Shown here: positions 30,183 through 51,976 of the stretch, piece after piece
How positions within the stretch are numbered: position 1 is the first letter of the stretch
Layout of the letters: each line of letters begins with the position of its first letter
Source: Alloascoidea africana
Taxonomy: Eukaryota; Ascomycota; Alloascoideomycetes; Alloascoideales; Alloascoideaceae
DNA: 64,000 bases
Assembly: GCA_030581615.1 (NCBI GenBank)
Contig: JAKTTT010000005.1
Span: 62,001-126,000, forward strand
Direction: 5' to 3'
The notes under the pieces: generated by a model
Databases searched by the model: none
The model's input: the letters and a program-made list of their open reading frames with translations, nothing else
What the model was told of the DNA's origin: nothing
Translations under genes and position numbers: made by a program

Positions 30183-32612
30183 TCACAATAAGTAAGCAAT
30201 GGCACCGATCATTCCAGCGGCTATTCCAACGCCTGTGCCCATCTTATCGGCAGCACCAGGGTAACTGGTGATTCCGGCTGGAGTTGTTGCACTTTCAATT
30301 GAGGATGTCTCGATTGTGCTTGGCTCCGGTGCTGGTGCTGGTGCTGGTGCTGGCTCGGGAGATGGCTCGGGAGATGGTGCTGGTGCTGGTTCTGGTGCTG
30401 GCTCAGGCGCTGGTTCAGGTGCTGGTTCAGGTGCTGGTTCTGGCGCTGGTTCTGGCGCTGGTTCTGGCGCTGGTTCTGGTGCAGGTTCGGGAGAAGGTTC
30501 AGGAATTGGCTCTGGCGCTGGTTCTGGAGCAGGTTCAGGAGCTGGCTCTGGTGCTGGCTCTGGAGCAGGTTCGGGAGATGGTTCAGGAATTGGTTCAGGA
30601 GCTGGCTCTGGAGATGGTTCAGGAATTGGCTCTGGAGCTGGTTCCGGAGAAGGTTCAGGAATTGGCTCTGGTGCTGGCTCTGGTGCAGGTTCAGGAGCTG
30701 GCTCTGGTGCAGGTTCGGGAGAAGGTTCAGGAGCTGGCTCTGGTGCTGGCTCTGGTGCAGGCTCTGGTGCAGGCTCGGGAGATGGCTCGGGAGATGGTGC
30801 TGGAGCTGGTTCAGGAGCTGGTTCAGGAGCTGGTTCAGGAGCTGGTTCAGGAGCTGGTTCAGGAGCTGGTTCTGGTGCTGGTTCAGGAGCTGGTTCGGGA
30901 GAAGGTTCAGGAATTGGCTCTGGTGCTGGCTCTGGAGATGGCTCAGGTGCTGGCTCAGGCGCTGGTTCTGGCGCTGGTTCTGGCGCTGGTTCTGGTGCAG
31001 GTTCGGGAGAAGGTTCAGGAATTGGCTCTGGCGCTGGTTCAGGAGCAGGTTCAGGAGCTGGCTCTGGTGCTGGTTCTGGTGCTGGTTCCGGAGAAGGTTC
31101 AGGAGCAGGTTCAGGAGCAGGTTCGGGAGAAGGTTCAGGAATTGGTTCAGGAGCTGGCTCTGGAGATGGCTCGGGAGAAGGCTCAGGAATTGGTTCTGGT
31201 GCTGGCTCGGGAGATGGCTCTGGTGCTGGCTCGGGAGAAGGTTCGGGAGAAGGTTCAGGAATTGGCTCAGGAGCTGGTTCTGGAGAAGGTTCTGGAGATG
31301 GCTCAGGAATTGGCTCGGGTGCTGGCTCGGGAGAGGGCTCTGGCGCTGGTTCTGGTTCTGGAGATGGCTCGGGAGATGGCTCAGGAGTTGGAGTTGTGCA
31401 TGGCTCGGTCGTAATACTAGTAAAAGTAGTTATGCTGTCAGTGCAATCAGATTCGGTGCATGGAATTGTGGAGGTGGTGGTATAAGTGGTCCAAGAGGTT
31501 GTGCCATTCGAAAAGCTCGAAGGAGAAAACGTAGGGTCTGAGAAGTATGGGGAAATATAAGAGGAAGTTGTCTCCGAAGTTGTGCACGGCTCAGTAGTCG
31601 TTTCAGTGGTTGTAGTAACACTGTCAGTACAATCAGATTCAGTGCAAGGAATTGTGGAGGTGGTGGTATACGTAGTCCAAGAAGTAGTATCGTTGTTGAA
31701 TGTAGAAGGAGAAAACGTAGGGTCTGAGAAGTATGGGGAAATATAAGAGGAAGTTGTCTCCGAAGTTGTGCACGGCTCAGTAGTCGTTTCAGTGGTTGTA
31801 GTAACACTGTCAGTACAATCAGATTCAGTGCAAGGAATTGTGGAGGTGGTGGTATACGTAGTCCAAGAAGTAGTATCGTTGTTGAATGTAGAAGGAGAAA
31901 ACGTTGGGTCTGAGAAGTATGGGGAAATATAAGAGGAAGTTGTCTCCGAAGTTGTGCACGGCTCAGTAGTCGTTTCAGTGGTTGTAGTAACACTGTCAGT
32001 GCAATCAGATTCAGTGCAAGGAATTGTGGAGGTGGTAGTATACGTAGTCCAAGAAGTGGTGTCGTTGTTCGTTGGAGTAGGTGAAAACGTTGGATCTGAG
32101 AAGAATGGGGAAATGTGAGATGAAGTTGTTTCCGAAGTTGTGCACGGCTCCGTAGTTGTTTGTGTAGTTGTAGTGACACTGTCAGTACAATCAGATTCAG
32201 TGCAAGGAATTGTGGAGGTGGTAGTATACGTAGTCCAAGAAGTGGTGTCGTTGTTAGTTGAAGAAGGAGAAAACGTTGGATCGGAGAAGAACGGAGAAAC
32301 ATAAGAAGTAGTTTCTTCAGATGAGGTAGGCTCTTCAGATGAGGTAGTCTCTTCGGATGAAGTAGTGCATGGTTCGGTGGTCGTTTCAGTGGTTGTGGTG
32401 ACACTATCAGTGCAGTCAGATTGAGTACATGGAATGGTAGACGTCTTGGTAATGGTAGTCCAAGATTCTGTAGTGGTGTCACTGGTACTATCAAATTGGC
32501 TTGAGGAAGCAATACTCGAACTAGTAGTCACAGATGAACTATTGTAAGAGTGGGTGTCATAATAGGCAAGGGCAATATTAGCCAAAGCTAATAGAGAAAC
32601 GAGAGATCTCAT
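30183..32612 (-). CDS. GPI-type cell-wall protein with Thr-rich and Pro-Glu-Pro-Ala repeats
   Basis: The protein has 809 residues from the Met at 32612; a further Met 21 bp upstream is less likely because it would spoil the signal peptide. It opens with a signal peptide ([16 protein letters not shown]). Six Thr/Ser-rich repeats follow, each with IPCT(E/Q)SDCTDS and TTEPCTT and a period of 186 bp (62 residues). About 350 residues of (A/S/I)PEP repeats come next. The C-terminus is hydrophobic after small residues ([26 protein letters not shown]), as for GPI addition. The cysteine-spaced Thr-rich repeats resemble flocculin/adhesin stalks, so adhesion or wall structure is likely but no ligand-binding domain is visible. 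Neighbouring 186-bp copies are almost identical, implying recent duplication or conversion. Confidence 0.82.
30325..31390 (-). repeat. Pro-Glu-Pro-Ala/Ser/Ile coding minisatellite
   Basis: About 1 kb is made of a 12-bp unit encoding PEPA with PEPS and PEPI variants (read on plus: GGTTCAGGAGCT and similar). Higher-order blocks recur, such as runs with [12 protein letters not shown]. The antisense strand reads (GSGA)n without stops. Confidence 0.85.
31420..32480 (-). repeat. six 186-bp tandem repeats (Thr-rich stalk)
   Basis: The landmark encoding [11 protein letters not shown] recurs at a spacing of 186 bp (near 31641, 31827, 32013, 32199), with diverged end copies near 31455 and 32425. The two copies covering about 31600-31970 are almost base-for-base the same. 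Confidence 0.85.
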
Positions 32613-33338
32613 AATCAAAATCCACTCTCTCAAATTATTTATTCGTTTTTATTCGGTTTTGAGAATTGAACTTGAATGAGAAGAGAATGTGTTTGAGTGA
32701 TGATGAAAAGAAGAAGACGAAAAATGGTCTCCTTTTATATAAGAGTCTACTCTATGGGGTTTTGTTTGTTCATTAGAAATAATACTCTGAACTAACCGTA
32801 CTCTTCGACTTATCTGAGTCTGAACCATTGTCGTTGGCAGTTAACCCCAGTCCAACAATGCCCACAATGGCTCGAATAATTATTGAATACAACATATTGT
32901 ATGCATTTATCAATTATAGATAGTTCCGCCATAGTTGCGTACCATGTGTGCAGATACATGGCCAGATGGTTGGTGTTTTCCCATTGTGAGCCAAGAAGAT
33001 CCGGAGTCTTTGTGGTACTTGGCAGATCTGGGGGTGCTTATGTACCTGTGCATTTACTATAACAGGTAATTCGGCCTGCCAAGTTCGTTTAAGACCTGCT
33101 TGCAAGCATTGGCCCACCAAAGACCAGTCTACAACATTGCTCATACTACAAACGCTTCACCTTTCAATACTTGGTTGATCCAGAAGTCCAACTGTTTTGT
33201 TTATATTATAATTCTTCTCCGAAAAAGAGAAGAGTCGGTAACGGCTTTGAATTATTTATAGAACGAAACATACGATTAACAAGACTAGACGAAAATTAGG
33301 GCCAAAATGGAGGTTCATAGGGCTTCAGATCTATTAGA
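32613..33338. promoter_or_regulatory. promoter region of the Thr/PEPA wall-protein gene
   Basis: About 725 bp lie upstream of the first wall-protein gene and downstream of the second. A T-rich stretch and a TATATAA at about 32735 lie about 125 bp upstream of the start, in the usual TATA range for a yeast surface-protein gene. No other gene is seen. Confidence 0.45.
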
Positions 33339-34424
33339 TCAGAGGAAAAAGACGCCAAATATGATGGTTGCAGCAACCACAGTGATCAAGTTTTCTTGAA
33401 CAGTTTTAATAGAGCCACCTTCAGCAATGGGAACTTCTGGTACCTGTTCTGTTGGAGCAGGAGGAACTTCACTCGGCAAGGTACTAGTGCTTCTAAGAGT
33501 AGTTGTACTTTCGATAGAGATAGTACTAGTGAGCGTAGTGGTTGGTTCAGGCTCGGGTTCGGAAGCAGGAGCTGGCTCTGGAGCAGGTTCGGGAGAAGGT
33601 TCAGGAATTGGCTCTGGTGCTGGCTCTGGTGCTGGTTCTGGTGCTGGTTCTGGTGCTGGTTCTGGTGCTGGTTCAGGAGCTGGTTCAGGAGCTGGCTCTG
33701 GAGCAGGTTCGGGAGCTGGAGCTGGAGCTGGAGCTGGCTCAGGAGTTGGTGTTTCGCACGGTTCTGAAGACGTCTCAGGAGCAGGTTCTGGAGCCGGCTC
33801 TGGCGCTGGTGCTGGTGCTGGTTCTGGTTCCGGTGCTGGTGCTGGTTCGGGAGCTGGAGCTGGAGCAGGTTCTGGAGTTGGTGTTTCGCACGGCTCTGAA
33901 GAAGGTTCTGGTGCTGGTTCGGGAGCTGGTTCGGGAGCTGGTTCGGGAGCTGGAGCTGGAGCTGGAGCTGGCTCAGGAGTTGGTGTTTCGCACGGTTCTG
34001 AAGACGTCTCAGGAGCAGGTTCTGGAGAAGGCTCGGGAGCAGGTTCTGGAGCCGGCTCTGGCGCTGGTTCTGGTGCTGGTGCTGGTTCCGGTGCTGGTGC
34101 TGGTTCGGGAGCTGGAGCTGGAGCAGGTTCTGGAGTTGGTGTTTCGCACGGCTCTGTAGAAGGTTCTGGCTCTGGCTCAGGAGTGGGAGTTTCTTCACAT
34201 GAATCAGAAATAATAATAGTATGGATTATATTTGTTTTATGTTTTCCTCGTTTCTCCAAACCATTATTCAACGCTTCTGGCAAATGAGCATTAGGAGAGC
34301 TCGGATTCTTAATAGCAGCTTTCGCCTTCAATTTGTTAACAAATGGAGGTACCACGGATGCTGTAACAACTAGGTTAAGCGAAAGAATAAATAGCGATAG
34401 TAGTTGAAAATTTGGACACTTCAT
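33339..34424 (-). CDS. GPI-type secreted protein with Pro-Glu-Pro-Ala repeats and Kex2-like site
   Basis: The 361-residue protein has a signal peptide ([23 protein letters not shown]), a short pro-region ending in a Kex2-type LEKR site before GKHKTN, then Pro/Glu/Ala repeats. The repeats are divided into blocks by about four copies of [10 protein letters not shown], and a hydrophobic C-terminal segment ([16 protein letters not shown]) follows a Ser/Thr-rich stretch, suiting a GPI anchor. The PEPA repeat is the same kind as in the gene 700 bp downstream, so the two are probably related by repeat exchange or tandem duplication. The paired CE(T)PTP cysteines could form disulfides between molecules. 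No catalytic domain is visible; a structural wall role is inferred. Confidence 0.78.
33550..34190 (-). repeat. PEPA repeat with [10 protein letters not shown] blocks
   Basis: A 12-bp-based PEPA/APAP repeat is interrupted by larger duplicated blocks. The segment coding for [16 protein letters not shown] recurs at about 33750, 33880, 33985 and 34140 with only a few changes. Confidence 0.8.
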
Positions 34425-44816: not shown

Positions 44817-44825
44817 AAACTAGTT
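44817..44825. repeat. left target-site duplication of the MULE
   Basis: AAACTAGTT occurs directly outside the left inverted repeat and again at 49217-49225 directly outside the right one. Nine bases is the usual duplication length for Mutator-like elements. Confidence 0.85.
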
Positions 44826-44910
44826 ACTAGTTTACTTTTGTCCACCTCAAAGTGTTTTTTCCCGACTTCCCCATTGGGATACAACCTAACACCCCAAATA
44901 TGCAATGCAG
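44826..44910 (+). repeat. left terminal inverted repeat of the MULE
   Basis: The 85-bp arm matches the reverse complement of 49132-49216, with conserved blocks TTTTGTCCACCTCAAA, ATTGGGATACAACC and ATATGCAATGCAG, and diverged bases between. Confidence 0.85.
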
Positions 44911-45801
44911 GTTCTAATGCAGTTATTCATCTTTTGCATGCATTTATCTGTTTATGGAATTTTGCATGTTTGTTTATTTTTGATTGTTTTGTTTTTACAA
45001 ATCCGGAATACCTCCATTCCCCTTTGTTTCCTGTCTCCTGCCTCCCCGTTTTCTTTTCTTCCTCTCTTCCTACTTCCTACTTCCCACTTTCCGATTTTCC
45101 AATTTTACCGTCTTCAAACAATGGTTCTTGTGAGTCTATGTGAATGATTGAATGATCAACGTCTCTATTGTTTCTCGGTCACTGACATGCAATTTCTAGG
45201 TTCCTGTAGCTCTGTTTGGTTGAATTTGGAGTGGCTGTTTGGGTTACATGCCGATTTTCCAATTTTGAAAGCGGATTGTGAGATGGTCATAAAAGCCGGC
45301 AATTCAAAAAAGGAATTGTTTTGGAACTTACATTTGATTTTGTAAATAGAAAACAGGTCCCAATGTCATTGCAGACTGTAAGCGTCAGTGCTGTTTCTCA
45401 AAATAGGCAACTATTAAACGGTTACTGATCTTAAAGGAATGTTCTCTTATTAACACTTTTTAGATGAGTTCAAGCCTCTACTGCCAAGTGTAGTTTAGCT
45501 CCATCGAGCTGTGGATAAATCCTATTGTTAAAACTGCTCTTGGTTGTTGAAATATAGCTTAGGATTATTATGTATTAGGCGGATAGTTACTTCGAACAGA
45601 TAAGTATATTTACACTGCTAATTTGTAACTGAAGGCTTTAAGTAACTGGAGAATTGATCTTCCAAATTGGTTTGTTGTCAATAGCCAGAAATAGATATAG
45701 TTTAATTAGTTTAGTTCTAGGATGCAAACCATAACCACAAATTTTTCTATTTCACAAGTAAAACAACGGCATACACTGTTATATACTTACTATACCCTAT
45801 A
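44911..45801. other. MULE 5' noncoding region
   Basis: About 890 bp separate the left inverted repeat from the transposase ATG. There is a pyrimidine-rich stretch at about 45040-45110 but no second gene. It presumably carries the transposase promoter. Confidence 0.55.
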
Positions 45802-48330
45802 ATGTCTTTCTCTGTATTTCAGTCTGTTTACGAGTTTAAATGCTCAGATCCAGATCATGCGGGTCCTGTACTTTGCACTGGAGCCCCGGGCCAAAATATC
45901 TGTGGTGCATGCAAGCACCAACGGACAACAGAAGGGCAAAAGGCAGATCGCGATGCCAAAAGAGCGGAGAAGAGATTCAAAGTCTCAAAATATCATTCTT
46001 TGGATGATATGATAAGCTTTGTGATCTCTTCGAATTGCATCGCAGATGTCTCATGCTCGATTATTGATCCTGACTTGGAAAGGATCAATTATCTGGCTCA
46101 TGGTGACGAAGCAGACGACGGGGAGGGTTTCTACGAGCCCCAAAGTGAGGTTGAGGATCAGGCCTCTTCGGACATATGTTTGTTGGAGGATCTCTATGCT
46201 TCAACCATCGAAGTATTAGAAGCTTCAACAGGGTTGAACTTTTTCAAGAACAGGAAGCGACTGTCCGCCTACAGTTTCACAAGAACATATTCCTGCATCC
46301 AAGATGAAAAGCACCATCGGGGAAAGGAAGCCCCGAAACTGCTCCATAACCCGAAAAACTTGAAGGCGTTTCGATGCCAATCAAGTATTCAGATTTCGTA
46401 CAATTGTCGTGACGACTTTTACAAAGTTTGTTTTTGTCATCGCTTGGACCACCCAAAGCCAAGCCCAATTGTAGTTCCTCCCAAGGTTGAGGAAATGATT
46501 GACATGAATTTCCGGTCGGGTCCGACCGCAGTTCACAACCTCCTTGATCAGCTTTTGGATGATGGACCAACAAGAAGATTCTTACAGGATCCGAGAGCGA
46601 AAAAGGTGGTTTCCAGAATATGGCGCCAAAAAACTGCCGCTCGCTGGAAGCGTAGTGAAAACGCTGTTGAAAGCGCCCGGCAACTAGTTGAAGAGCTAGA
46701 AAAGGAAGGGAAAATCATAAAATTAGAGCTTGATAATAAAAACATTTCTAATAAAACTGTTGAATATTTGGCCTTTTATGTTCCAGCTATTGTTGAGCTT
46801 TTAAAGGAGGATTGCAAGGAGTGGGTTATGGATGCGACTTTTAACATCACGAATTCATTCTATTACTTGTATGGAATTGTGGCATCCTTTAATGGAGAAG
46901 GCTTTCCAGTGGCATATATGTATTCTGATAAGGGGACCGACTCCAAAATCCTCAGAAGTTTTCTTGTGGAGGTGAGGGCTCTAGGGTTTGAGAGCATACA
47001 AACGGTTCATACAGATTGCGATCTTGCGGAGGTCAATGCGGTTGAGAATGCATTCGAAGCACACACCTTGCACTTATGTGCTTGGCATGTTTTACGTGCC
47101 TTGAAAAAGCATAGTGCAAAAGTTGCCAGATCCAAAAAGTACAATCCTCAGGACTTTGCAGGTTTGAATATTGATACGCAGTTTGGAAGTGGCTCTGGAG
47201 TTGGAGGGCCGAAGTATGAGGTGGTGAATGAACTTGCCTTTAAGCAAGTTTTTCAACACATGCGGTCGATTTTGTATGACCACCCTTTCTATCACCTCTT
47301 AAGCACTCATCCAAAAAGTGCTGACCAATTATGGTCGGAAGCAGTACAAAATATCTACCGCATCTGTTTTGAATATAAGCAACCATACTTGTGGTCGTAT
47401 ATTGCCGGGCAGTGGATGAAGAAAGACATGTTTGTGCGTTGGTCGAAAGTGGGAAAGCCATATCTGCCGGTCTTGAACACTTCAATGTTGATCGAGAGCC
47501 ATTGGAGATCTCTCAAGCACAAGCACTTGCGGAATTTTAGAAATTCCAGAGTTGACATTGTAATTTATTTACATGTCAATGTGGCTTTGAAGGCTTATTC
47601 CGATAAGCTCCGGATGAGACTAACGTTTCTTGTAGGATCTCCCAATTCCTTGGACCTGAATTCTTGGCAGATCAGATTCAAACAAGATTTTATTAAGTTT
47701 GATGATCTGGCAAGAAAACAAGTTTCTGAAGGAACATGGGAAGCCAACAACGGTTCGTTCCATTGGAACAGAGCACTTTGGCTTTGTGACTGTGGTGGCC
47801 AGAAATTTAATGAACATAATATTTGCGTGCATCTTGTTCATTCATTTAACTGGGATCGAAAAGACTGGTCGATATTCATGACTGTTAGAAAACAGTCAGT
47901 CCCTCCATTGTTAACATTTGCCAACAATCACCTCGCCATAGATAATCATCAAAGGGCTGGAGAGCTTTTGATTGCTGATGTGAATGAGCAACAAAACACT
48001 GGGGAAATTAATACAGGTGATGGATTGACCGAAGAGATCCAAGAGATGGAACGTGCCAAGTCTGAAGGGACAAAAATGCTGGAGAGCTTTAAGCGCATTT
48101 ACGAGATGTTGCCTGTCTGGATGAGTATGGACCCAGATGAGATCTCAACGATCAAGCCTGGATCACTTGAACTTGCTAGTAATTTGGAGGAAAACATGAA
48201 GGAAGCGTTCTTAATTGAGTCGCTCAATATTCCTCCAAATGAACTATATACGAATAAGCCTTTCCAGGGCATGGAATACAAAAAATGGATAAGGGCTTTG
48301 AAATTATATGCGGCCCAAAAAAATACTTGA
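45802..48330 (+). CDS. MULE transposase with SWIM zinc finger
   Basis: The 842-residue open frame belongs to the Mutator-like transposase superfamily. A Cys/His-rich N-terminus (CSDPDHAG..C..CGACKH) may be a DNA-binding zinc site. The catalytic core shows WVMDATFN (first Asp about 344), VHTDCDLAE (second Asp about 405-407) and the CAWH signature at 426-429 that MULE transposases place between the second Asp and the Glu; the catalytic Glu was not assigned with certainty. A SWIM finger CxCxnCxH follows, with Cys 662 and 664, Cys 675 and His 677 (CDCGG..NICVH). The remainder is acidic and helical. The product cuts and pastes DNA by binding the 85-bp ends. Relatives in yeasts (Mutyl in Yarrowia) and fungi (Hop) are known. 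Confidence 0.9.
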   Translation: MSFSVFQSVYEFKCSDPDHAGPVLCTGAPGQNICGACKHQRTTEGQKADRDAKRAEKRFKVSKYHSLDDMISFVISSNCIADVSCSIIDPDLERINYLAHGDEADDGEGFYEPQSEVEDQASSDICLLEDLYASTIEVLEASTGLNFFKNRKRLSAYSFTRTYSCIQDEKHHRGKEAPKLLHNPKNLKAFRCQSSIQISYNCRDDFYKVCFCHRLDHPKPSPIVVPPKVEEMIDMNFRSGPTAVHNLLDQLLDDGPTRRFLQDPRAKKVVSRIWRQKTAARWKRSENAVESARQLVEELEKEGKIIKLELDNKNISNKTVEYLAFYVPAIVELLKEDCKEWVMDATFNITNSFYYLYGIVASFNGEGFPVAYMYSDKGTDSKILRSFLVEVRALGFESIQTVHTDCDLAEVNAVENAFEAHTLHLCAWHVLRALKKHSAKVARSKKYNPQDFAGLNIDTQFGSGSGVGGPKYEVVNELAFKQVFQHMRSILYDHPFYHLLSTHPKSADQLWSEAVQNIYRICFEYKQPYLWSYIAGQWMKKDMFVRWSKVGKPYLPVLNTSMLIESHWRSLKHKHLRNFRNSRVDIVIYLHVNVALKAYSDKLRMRLTFLVGSPNSLDLNSWQIRFKQDFIKFDDLARKQVSEGTWEANNGSFHWNRALWLCDCGGQKFNEHNICVHLVHSFNWDRKDWSIFMTVRKQSVPPLLTFANNHLAIDNHQRAGELLIADVNEQQNTGEINTGDGLTEEIQEMERAKSEGTKMLESFKRIYEMLPVWMSMDPDEISTIKPGSLELASNLEENMKEAFLIESLNIPPNELYTNKPFQGMEYKKWIRALKLYAAQKNT

Positions 48331-48354
48331 AGCGCTATTTCATCGAATATATAT

Positions 48355-49020
48355 GTATAAACAAGTAGATATAAACGCTTTATATGTTTTTTTTGTCATA
48401 AACTATGAAAACAAGTATATATAAACACTTTGTATGTTTTTTTTTGTCATAAACTATAAAAACAAGTATATATAAACACTTTGTATGTTTTTTTTTGTCA
48501 TAAACTATAAAAACAAGTATATATAAACACTTTGTATGTTTTTTTTGTCATAAACTATAAAAACAAGTATATATAAACACTTTGTATGTTTTTTTTGTCA
48601 TAAACTATAAAAACAAGTATATATAAACACTTTGTATGTTTTTTTTTGTCATAAACTATGAAAACAAGTATATATAAACACTTTGTATGTTTTTTTTGTC
48701 ATAAACTATAAAAACAAGTATATATAAACACTTTGTATGTTTTTTTTGTCATAAACTATAAAAACAAGTATATATAAACACTTTGTATGTTTTTTTTTGT
48801 CATAAACTATGAAAACAAGTATATATAAACACTTTGTATGTTTTTTTTGTCATAAACTATAGAAACAAGTATATATAAACACTTTGTATGTTTTTTTTGT
48901 CATAAACTATAAAAACAAGTATATATAAACACTTTGTATGTTTTTTTTGTCATAAACTATAAAAACAAGTATATATAAACACTTTGTATGTTTTTTTTTG
49001 TCATAAACTTTGAAAACATG
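48355..49020 (+). repeat. 50-bp tandem repeat array inside the MULE (about 13 copies)
   Basis: A unit of 50-52 bp containing GTATATATAAACACTTTG and GTCATAAACTAT is repeated head to tail about 13 times. Units differ mainly in the length of a T run (7-9) and at single bases. It begins about 25 bp after the transposase stop codon and ends about 110 bp before the right inverted repeat. There is no comparable array at the left end. There are no unique spacers, so this is not a CRISPR array. Confidence 0.92.
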
Positions 49021-49131
49021 TAATCTGACTAGACCATTTATCAGTGAGTCGTGACGTTGTCGTTGTCATGACAATCATTAACACCGAAAAGAGAATCAAA
49101 GGTGCATTGCAGAATTTCCGTTGTTGGATTA

Positions 49132-49216
49132 CTGCATTGCATATTTTAGGGGGTATGGTTGTATCCCAATAGGGGTTTCGAAAATTTCTTTTTGAGGTGG
49201 ACAAAAGTGCGGTTGT
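49132..49216 (-). repeat. right terminal inverted repeat of the MULE
   Basis: This 85-bp arm is the inverted partner of 44826-44910. It ends ACAACCGCAC when read inward, against ACTAGTTTAC at the left; the next 16 bases are the same in both. Confidence 0.85.
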
Positions 49217-49225
49217 AAACTAGTT
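49217..49225. repeat. right target-site duplication of the MULE
   Basis: AAACTAGTT directly follows the right inverted repeat and is identical to 44817-44825. Confidence 0.85.
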
Positions 49226-49333: not shown

Positions 49334-51976
49334 ATGGGAAAAACTTCTGTGAGAAGGACACAAAGATCGGGTATACCGAACATCAAAAAGCCAAAGTCTG
49401 GCAATAAGCGGAAGAAGGATGCCACACGGCGCTCAACGAATAAGATATTGAACGCATTTGACATTGCTGAAAGGCAAGAGGAGAACAAAGATGACGATAG
49501 TGACGATGAGGAGTCCAGGAACGAAAAAAAAGACAATTTCGATGGAGTTGTAAGATTCACGATTGATAAGGAGACCGGGAGACCTGTAGAGGTTGAAGAT
49601 TCTGATGAAGATGACGATTCTGATGGCGCTGAAGACACTGAAATAGAATCTGCAAGCGAATCGGATGAAGATGATTATCCCACGATGGGAGAGGAGGGAA
49701 TGACATTATCAATGCTTTGGGATCAGCGTACTGGAAACACGGAATCTGGAGCTAAAACTTCACAGAAAAAGGAAATGGACCTTGCTCTTGATGATGATAC
49801 TTCATCTGAAGATGATGCCAGTGACCAAGAAGAATCTGAAGATGAGAGCAGCAGTAGCGAGGAAGACGATGACGAAGAAGAGGAAGAGGAAGAAGAAATT
49901 GATGCTCTATCCTTTGAGGAAGATGAAGCTGCTAACTCTGATGAAGAAGACTTTTCAAAAATGTACGAAAATGTTCAAAAGTATGTTACAAGCGGCACCT
50001 CAGACAAGAAACCAAAAACCATTCGCAAGAGGCTTCAAAATAACAATGCACCTGAAAATGAATATGCTGTTCCTTCAAAAGGGAGCAAGTTAATGAATTC
50101 AAAAATGCTCGAAGCAGCCGCTATAACGGGCGACCTGCTTATCAGAGATAAAAAAGGCGCAATCAGCGAGATTGAAGCAATGGCAGTTCCTTTACCAGGG
50201 CGAATTAGAGCCCGACATAGCAGACGAGCGGCCCTTGAAATCACAAATCAAGAGGTAAACAAGTGGAAAGACGCTGTTCAACAAAATAGAGATGCCGAGG
50301 TTTTGCATTTCCCCATAAACCCTGAGTCAAAGCACAATGAAATTACGACTTTTACACCTAATGAGCCTATTACTGACTTGGAAAAGAAGGTTAATTCGAT
50401 TCTGGTGGAATCTGCGCTTGTTGATGAGGAAAAAGAGAGAGCCTTTGAAGACATGCAAGTTAAGAAATTGTCAAAGGAAGAAATAATAAAGCAAACTCAA
50501 CAGATGCGACAGATGAGAGAGCTCATGTTCAGAGAAGAAGCACGAGCTAAAAGAATAAAGAAAATCAAATCCAAAACATATCGGAAAATACACAAAAATG
50601 AAGCTTTGAGAAATCAAGCATTGGTTGAAGGCGATGACGACGATATCGAAAAGAAAGAGTATGACCGAGCTAAGGAAAGGATGACGCAGAGACATAAGAA
50701 TACAAAATGGGCAAAAAGCATGGTTAAAAGCGGCATTTCTAAGGATAAAGCAAGCAGATCAGAATTGGAAAGGGCAAATGAACTTAGACAGATTTTAACC
50801 CGAACCGAAAGGCATAACAGCAGCGATGAAGGGGAAGATTTGGAATCAGATCCTGAGGAAGTTGAAAAACTTGAAGAAGAAAGGAAAAAGACTGGAAAAG
50901 GAGTAATGGGCATGGACTTTATGAGGAAAGCCGATGAGCTCGAGAGAGCTCGAAACAAGGCAGAAATCGAAGAACTGCGGTTATTGGAGGCGGGATCTGA
51001 CGAACCAGAGGAGGAAGACACCGTTACAGTAGGAAGAAGGATATACGGAGGAGATCACAAAAAGACTGCCCCTGTTCGTCAATCCATAGCGAGAGAAAGA
51101 GCACTGGATGACAGCGATTATGATAATGGCGAAGCGGAAGAAGCTGAACAAGAAGTTACAAGGGTAGATTTGGATGACAAACCCGAGACGACTGGAAAAA
51201 AGGCCAAAACCGTTAAATTTAAAGATGAGCAAGATGATGATGAGCAAGAGAATGAAACCGAAGAAAACCCGTGGATGGCTAGTACCGATGAACCCCATGT
51301 TCAGAAATCTTCCAAGGTTAGAGCACTCGACAAGGACAGCAGTAGGTCTGATAAGTTAATGGCAAAATTAAAGAAGGGTGAAAAAGCTGCTTCTAGAAAG
51401 GGCTCCAAGGCTGATGATACCATTATTGACTTGAACTCAACTGTCAAGTTTCTTGACCCTTATGCAGACGAGCATGATGGTTCTGAGGGAGAGTACGATG
51501 ATGACACGCAGATGACACACAGTATTCAATCTTTCAAGAACAAGGATCTCCTAAAGCGTGCATTTGCTGAAGACGATGTAGTGGATGAATTCCAAAGCGA
51601 GAAGCGACAGGTCATTGAGGAGGAAGGCGATCAAGAGATTGACGAGACTTTGCCAGGGTGGGGATCATGGGGCGGCGAAGGAATCACTACGAAAAAGAAA
51701 TTTGTCAAGAAGATTCAAGGTGTAGCCGAGAATAAAAGAAAAGACTCCAAGCTGAAAAATGTTATAATTAATGAGAGGGCGATTAAGAAAGCGGCCAAGT
51801 ATTCAGCATCAAATGTCCCATTCCCTTATGAAAGCCGGGATCAGTACGAATTGTCTCTACGGATGCCAATTGGTCAAGAATGGACTTCAAGAGAATCTCA
51901 TCAACGGCTGACTATGCCCAAAGTTACTGTTAAGCCTGGTACTGTTATTGATCCGTTAAAAGCAGCATTTAAGTAG
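49334..51976 (+). CDS. UTP14: Utp14, small-subunit processome component
   Basis: Utp14 activates the Dhr1 helicase to release U3 snoRNA during 18S rRNA maturation in the nucleolus. The 880-residue length equals S. cerevisiae Utp14 (899). The N-terminal third is dominated by acidic Asp/Glu/Ser stretches. The conserved middle includes KKIKSKTYRKIHK and RMTQRHKNTKWAKSMVKSG. WMASTDEP lies in the second half, and the C-terminus has the family block NVPFPYESRDQYE, SLRMPIGQEWTS and PGTVIDPLKAAFK. It has no introns. A MULE is inserted about 110 bp upstream, so expression might be affected. Confidence 0.95.
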   Translation: MGKTSVRRTQRSGIPNIKKPKSGNKRKKDATRRSTNKILNAFDIAERQEENKDDDSDDEESRNEKKDNFDGVVRFTIDKETGRPVEVEDSDEDDDSDGAEDTEIESASESDEDDYPTMGEEGMTLSMLWDQRTGNTESGAKTSQKKEMDLALDDDTSSEDDASDQEESEDESSSSEEDDDEEEEEEEEIDALSFEEDEAANSDEEDFSKMYENVQKYVTSGTSDKKPKTIRKRLQNNNAPENEYAVPSKGSKLMNSKMLEAAAITGDLLIRDKKGAISEIEAMAVPLPGRIRARHSRRAALEITNQEVNKWKDAVQQNRDAEVLHFPINPESKHNEITTFTPNEPITDLEKKVNSILVESALVDEEKERAFEDMQVKKLSKEEIIKQTQQMRQMRELMFREEARAKRIKKIKSKTYRKIHKNEALRNQALVEGDDDDIEKKEYDRAKERMTQRHKNTKWAKSMVKSGISKDKASRSELERANELRQILTRTERHNSSDEGEDLESDPEEVEKLEEERKKTGKGVMGMDFMRKADELERARNKAEIEELRLLEAGSDEPEEEDTVTVGRRIYGGDHKKTAPVRQSIARERALDDSDYDNGEAEEAEQEVTRVDLDDKPETTGKKAKTVKFKDEQDDDEQENETEENPWMASTDEPHVQKSSKVRALDKDSSRSDKLMAKLKKGEKAASRKGSKADDTIIDLNSTVKFLDPYADEHDGSEGEYDDDTQMTHSIQSFKNKDLLKRAFAEDDVVDEFQSEKRQVIEEEGDQEIDETLPGWGSWGGEGITTKKKFVKKIQGVAENKRKDSKLKNVIINERAIKKAAKYSASNVPFPYESRDQYELSLRMPIGQEWTSRESHQRLTMPKVTVKPGTVIDPLKAAFK

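Follow-up and report, generated by a model that had tools for sequence, protein, structure and literature searches.

A structurally complete Mutator-like element upstream of UTP14 in the yeast Alloascoidea africana

We analyzed a 64,000-nucleotide stretch of the Alloascoidea africana genome (GenBank assembly GCA_030581615.1, contig JAKTTT010000005.1, positions 62,001 to 126,000 of the forward strand; hereafter, the window), in which a Mutator-like element (MULE) of 4391 bp occupies positions 44826-49216, the coordinates being exact on reading the window. The element carries a single long open reading frame (ORF), its remaining listed ORFs spanning 65-80 amino acids (aa), and lies ahead of the gene for a UTP14 homologue (Table 1). 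It is structurally complete and a real MULE, and we are highly confident in reading it as an autonomous-looking, single-ORF, cut-and-paste DNA transposon inserted upstream of UTP14. To our knowledge, complete MULEs have seldom been described in budding yeasts.

A preliminary description of the locus, made from the sequence letters and a list of ORFs, had proposed perfect 9-bp target duplications, 85-bp inverted repeats and an uninterrupted 842-codon transposase, and all three were borne out by the analysis, with the qualification that the ends are imperfect. The target site duplication, AAACTAGTT, is perfect over its 9 bp; when window positions were drawn at random 200,000 times, a 9-mer matched in 3 draws. 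Aligned in inverted orientation, the two ends are identical at 67 of 88 columns (6 gap columns). Their pairing score is 90, whereas 1000 shuffles and 2000 random window pairs each reached at most 36; 5 of their outermost 8 bp are mismatched. The left junction (44817-44833) reads AAACTAGT-T-ACTAGTTT, a perfect odd palindrome. The target site here is similar to the tip of the element itself, so that the reverse complement of the left tip coincides with 8 of the 9 duplicated bases. The borders are nonetheless right, because a second copy with related tips, located on C19, is bounded by an unrelated duplication. The left tip of that copy is identical to that of the window element, its right tip reads AGAACCACAC where the window has ACAACCGCAC (8 of 10 bases matching), and its own perfect 9-bp duplication, GATGTAGCC, is unlike the tips and bounds the copy exactly at that right tip. 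The element borders are hence fixed independently by the C19 copy. Since the ends of the C19 copy are asymmetric too, the mismatch between the window ends provides no date for the insertion.

Table 1. Features of the element and of the adjacent gene, in window coordinates
Feature	Position	Strand	Basis
Target site duplication AAACTAGTT, left copy, 9 bp	44817..44825	.	Sequence reading
Left terminal inverted repeat, 85 bp, imperfect	44826..44910	+	Pairing with right end; 95% over 85 bp to left end of C19 copy
5' untranslated region (promoter/leader presumed)	44911..45801	+	Parts common to copies on C30 (79%) and C11 (88%)
Transposase ORF, 842 codons/aa, stop-free	45802..48330	+	ORF translation; PF10551 at residues 341-431
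N-terminal Cys/His-rich motif, residues 14-37	45841..45912	+	Inside block common to C94 protein
Putative zinc-finger DNA-binding region, residues 125-236	46174..46509	+	41% identical to C94 protein
First putative catalytic Asp, D344 (DATFN)	46831..46833	+	Motif position; within PF10551 match
Second putative catalytic Asp, D405	47014..47016	+	Motif position; within PF10551 match
Putative catalytic Glu, E565 (LIESHW)	47494..47496	+	Motif position; ESHWR retained in C50 and C1 relics
SWIM-like finger CxCx10CxH, residues 662-677	47785..47832	+	Motif only
C-terminal block, residues 762-841	48085..48324	+	Retained in C94 protein, 31/80 identical
Minisatellite of an AT-rich 50-bp unit repeated 13.2 times, between transposase ORF and right end	48359..49022	.	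Repeat scan
Right terminal inverted repeat, 85 bp, imperfect	49132..49216	-	C19 and C30 copies each 88% identical over right-end region
Target site duplication AAACTAGTT, right copy, 9 bp	49217..49225	.	Sequence reading
UTP14 homologue of 880 aa, its start codon 117 bp beyond the element	49334..51976	+	PDB sequence matches

The predicted protein matches the Pfam MULE domain PF10551 (E 3.7e-5, 24.5 bits, cut-off 27.6), and in a profile search of the genome with the same domain the window element scored 29.3 bits, above the cut-off. A match to the ZSWIM1-3 RNaseH-like domain at residues 302-419 (E 1.2e-4, below its cut-off) overlaps the PF10551 match. The putative finger region, whose pattern is possibly WRKY-GCM1-like, gave no Pfam match for any of four sequences; PDB sequence searches with the transposase and with an alignment of the finger region returned one chance-level match each (E 0.19 and 0.16, respectively), the latter to an unrelated protein. 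No relatives were found in the viral contigs or prokaryotic genomes searched, and codon-usage scoring was uninformative, with some off-frames outscoring true frames. By homology with the superfamily, a DDE/RNase-H-type transposase would find the terminal inverted repeats through its N-terminal finger regions, would cut the element out and would join it to a staggered target cut, the repair of which would generate the 9-bp duplication. Catalysis, recognition of the ends, present activity and any effect of the insertion on UTP14 are matters that we infer.

We searched the genome (23,180,953 bases, 23.2 Mb, in 138 contigs) for members of the same family; the resulting counts include the window's own copy and multiple pieces of single copies, and all are lower bounds. 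The transposase gave at least 12 matches, the 5' region of the element at least 15 and its right end at least 7, and a 27-base left-end pattern, allowing up to 3 mismatches, occurred at no fewer than 5 genome places versus none in a reversed control. Outside the window, DNA-level relatives were located on C11 (two), C19, C30, C3, C17 and C50; those on C11, C19 and C30 are deletion derivatives, and the remaining three contigs carry fragments. Stops interrupt the protein-level relics on C4 and C1, two of them within a 147-codon match in the C4 relic. Apart from the window ORF, no full-length transposase was found in the genome. By identity, the closest pieces are those on C19 (95% over 85 bp) and C50 (93% over 347 bp). 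The minisatellite is shared as well: a 24-base stretch of its 50-bp unit (up to 3 mismatches) was located at 15 genome places, 13 of them in the window element and 2 in the C19 copy.

Substitution rates were obtained by a simple count against the window codons. For the C11 piece (ORF nt 1-578) this yielded dN 0.084, dS 0.347 and dN/dS 0.24, and for the C50 pieces (ORF nt 1657-2003 and 1726-2468) dN/dS of 0.33 and 0.37 with dS of 0.14 and 0.18. The latter two pieces, about 350 and 740 nt of the ORF, make C50 the nearest relative among the coding sequences measured. Given dN/dS values of 0.24-0.37 against its relatives, the transposase lineage was probably under purifying selection. None of 1000 simulated copies of the ORF remained stop-free at 0.07 random substitutions per site under a uniform, bias-free mutation model. 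No family copy is close enough to indicate recent multiplication.

The derivatives differ in how they are built. The C19 copy spans 1754 bp, of which the interior 1131 bp (L035:2381-3511) correspond to a dispersed repeat of about 1.1 kb nested in the MULE derivative, leaving 623 bp of the derivative itself. The nested repeat has 45 matching genome pieces including itself, many at 82-90% over about 1 kb, which rules out its interpretation as host DNA captured in the manner of a Pack-MULE; on a reading by eye, its minus-strand frames resemble a transposase N-terminus, suggesting a pogo/Fot1-type repeat. At the C11:297760-299985 copy, inspection by eye revealed an 8-of-9 match between AGCGCTTAT and AGTGCTTAT, two bases outside the left tip and one outside the right. 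The second C11 copy, C11:338573-338990 (L038:2574-2991), is a fold-back derivative in which the host flanks form a 17-bp inverted repeat.

Several results weigh against reading the window feature as a complete MULE transposon. The PF10551 protein score falls just below the curated cut-off, a third Pfam match, rve, is insignificant (E 0.071), and PF04434 (SWIM) was not listed for the transposase at E≤1 in the Pfam search; of the MULE and SWIM motifs announced in the preliminary description, the former is thus recovered by Pfam, and the latter is assigned from its motif (C662-x-C664-x10-C675-x-H677). In a direct alignment with the MULE protein encoded on C14, neither the DDE nor the SWIM motifs came into register, so the DDE assignment amounts to motif recognition plus, for the two Asp residues, overlap with PF10551. 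AlphaFold models were unusable, with pLDDT of 36.7 for the whole transposase and 34.9 for the finger region. At the DNA level, because of the palindrome at the left junction, the duplication is a little less independent of the element tip; the right-end motif of the C19 copy is doubled in tandem (51 bp apart, the outer one abutting the duplication); no target duplication was seen in the flanks of the C30 copy, which were inspected by eye; and the 418-bp C11 copy is flanked by an inverted, not a direct, repeat. Searches with the transposase, the 5' region and the right end identified no near-identical second copy in the genome. Finally, an empty-site allele was not found in the element's own assembly, as the two matches to the joined flanks are both the window's own locus.

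The preliminary description had called the insertion recent and possibly still active. Because the other family members found are fragments, deletion derivatives or relics, none of them near-identical, recency is plausible and current activity conjectural. Within the transposon reading, a serious contender, somewhat less probable than its opposite, is that the window copy is a complete but silent lone survivor of a family that moved formerly, its last full copy being immobile. The C50 and C11 coding pieces, at dS 0.14-0.35, and the truncated or broken state of the other copies found are what such a history would leave, and a cut-and-paste element can dwindle to a single copy; on the other side, the frame is open, the 9-bp duplication is matched and the ends are paired, which speaks for a decay that has barely begun.

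Much weaker is the proposal that the window copy is not a mobile element and that the host retains it as a domesticated transposase gene. It would account for the only full-length family ORF found in the genome, for its purifying-selection signature and for its position upstream of UTP14, but selection on a still-moving transposase yields equal dN/dS, family relics elsewhere have decayed, and both inverted repeats and the perfect target duplication are present, all of which makes domestication of this copy very improbable. Hardly credible, lastly, is a true right end 8 bp further out, with the "duplication" being end sequence: the bases past 49216 do read AAACTAGT, which would place the ACTAGTTT tip on both sides, and an ACTAG or ACGAG tip occurs on both ends of both C11 copies, but the C19 copy stops at the right tip equivalent to that of the window, directly abutting its unrelated duplication. 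We therefore retain the MULE transposon with the borders given in Table 1.

Domestication, which the preliminary description had named as the outcome that would refute a mobile element, does not fit the window copy and does fit a relative of its transposase elsewhere in the genome. An intact 604-aa ORF at C94:38337-40151, on the minus strand (L042:3838-5652), is flanked by a ribosomal L11-family gene, presumably of the RPL12 type, and an AMP-binding (acyl-CoA-ligase type) gene. The encoded protein aligns with the transposase in three collinear blocks, covering transposase residues 1-98 (33% identity), 125-236 (41%) and 762-841 (39%), and contains no match above 20 bits to residues 237-761, in which the entire catalytic core lies together with the SWIM motif; in their place, the protein has stretches rich in Pro, Gln and acidic residues. 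Since a DNA search with the element at E≤1e-4 found nothing in the 9501 bases surrounding the gene, no inverted repeats are detectable there. The gene is single copy, with no second full-length match in the genome, and a Pfam search with its protein gave no meaningful domain, including no FAR1 domain. Its frame is still open at 33-41% protein identity, whereas the C4 relic of similar divergence has two stops, and in simulations of 604 codons at 0.1 random substitutions per site none of 1000 runs stayed stop-free. We consider the C94 gene likely to encode a domesticated, catalysis-free DNA-binding protein derived from the transposase. The reversed relationship, a host gene captured by the transposon, is formally conceivable, and loss of the core is the simpler explanation because two separate ends flanking the catalytic core are retained. 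That the C94 protein still binds MULE ends, and either represses the element or acts as a transcription factor for host promoters with MULE-end sequences, seems unlikely to us at present. Babu, in 2006, is said to have related the yeast regulators Aft1 and Rbf1 to MULE fingers.

The element adds to a known superfamily, whose presence in Saccharomycotina is already on record. The comparisons that follow are with published descriptions. MULE target duplications are given as 8-11 bp in a source tabulating Mutyl, Hop-group and Candida elements (PMC6446971), and the 9-bp duplications of the window and C19 copies fall within this range. Mutyl of Yarrowia lipolytica, a member of the Hop/Mutyl group and the first DNA element reported in Saccharomycotina (PMC5014426), is likewise a budding-yeast MULE with 9-bp (9-10 bp) duplications and few copies, five in one strain (PMC5014426, PMC6446971), and is full-length in only a few Yarrowia strains (PMC9865632). 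It differs in its 7413-bp length, 22-bp ends and second gene (mudrB/mutB), where the window element measures 4391 bp and has imperfect ends of about 85 bp, one long ORF without a second, and a 50-bp minisatellite. Hop of Fusarium oxysporum is alike in its single transposase (836 versus 842 aa), 9-bp duplication and long, 99-bp ends (PMC5014426), although these ends are perfect and those of the window element imperfect. Among MULEs mentioned for Candida albicans (PMC7175516), Phantom-Ca shares the Saccharomycotina host, the 9-bp duplication and a single ORF, but has 34-bp ends (PMC6446971). Homology with MULEs also extends to alpha3 of Kluyveromyces lactis, a MULE-type transposase in a budding yeast that differs in being domesticated for mating-type switching (PMC5499181); no mating-type domain was detected among the 19 window ORFs scanned, 4 of the 23 ORFs of at least 150 aa besides the transposase lying outside the scans.

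The rarity of MULEs in Saccharomycotina claimed in the preliminary description is accordingly tempered, by these published cases from Yarrowia, Candida and Kluyveromyces and by further MULE-domain places in the same genome, at C14:31824-32141 and C15:177067-177650 (above the Pfam cut-off) and at C37:128840-129376 (below it). The C14 place lies within a 531-aa ORF, the best C15 piece is interrupted by two stops, and all three apparently belong to other families. We did not recognise the window element itself in the MULE literature surveyed, a result that does not establish its absence from print.

For the C94 protein, the nearest parallel is provided by the FRF proteins of Arabidopsis, truncated FRS proteins that keep the DNA-binding domain without transposase core or SWIM and that are suggested to compete for FRS binding sites (PMC6000157). 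FRF proteins belong to the plant FAR1 family, whereas the C94 protein also keeps the C-terminal block and has no Pfam-recognised FAR1 domain. If the C94 protein did bind MULE ends and act as such a repressor or transcription factor, it would represent a fungal counterpart of the FRF proteins standing beside a relative of its transposon ancestor. With an intact copy, defined ends and natural deletion derivatives at hand, the element could be tested directly in laboratory yeast, in which an excision assay has been used for Muta1 (PMC5225508). Since this copy is paired with an intact gene that preserves just the non-catalytic parts of the same kind of transposase, a single genome could allow the path from transposase to regulator to be tested.

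The UTP14 homologue matches 6ke6_RQ, which we take to be from baker's yeast, with 436.7 bits, and 5oql_K, presumably from Chaetomium, with 215.5 bits, in keeping with a budding-yeast host; UTP14 is essential in baker's yeast. Pfam scans of 19 neighbouring window ORFs identified ordinary host genes, such as phosphatidylserine decarboxylase, Sir2-type and EMP70 genes. At positions 30183-34424, the window contains long tandem repeats with units of 12 bp and 186 bp. Long open frames occupy both strands there, two of 369 and 286 aa on one and two of 809 and 361 aa on the other, and perhaps encode cell-wall-type repeat proteins.

The remaining observations concern other parts of the genome. Among three esterase places, the one compared with PDB sequences scored 221.3 bits to the Geotrichum lipase 1thg, marginally below its scores to 1lpm (225.8) and 1crl (224.3), and so lent no support to a Geotrichum identity. 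An end-like motif, ACTTTTATTCACCTAAAA, accounting for 12 of 32 places of this kind, was entertained as the end of a sister MULE and set aside after reading one such place, C63:17300-18250 (L073). That place displays an inverted-repeat arrangement with a stretch that, by eye, resembles a Ty3-like RNase H, and it carries the recurrent MULE-end-like motif. ATP synthase alpha/beta domain scores are identical at C46:149119-149790 and C70:3765-4436, a pair that possibly reflects either a duplicated gene or unmerged contig ends.

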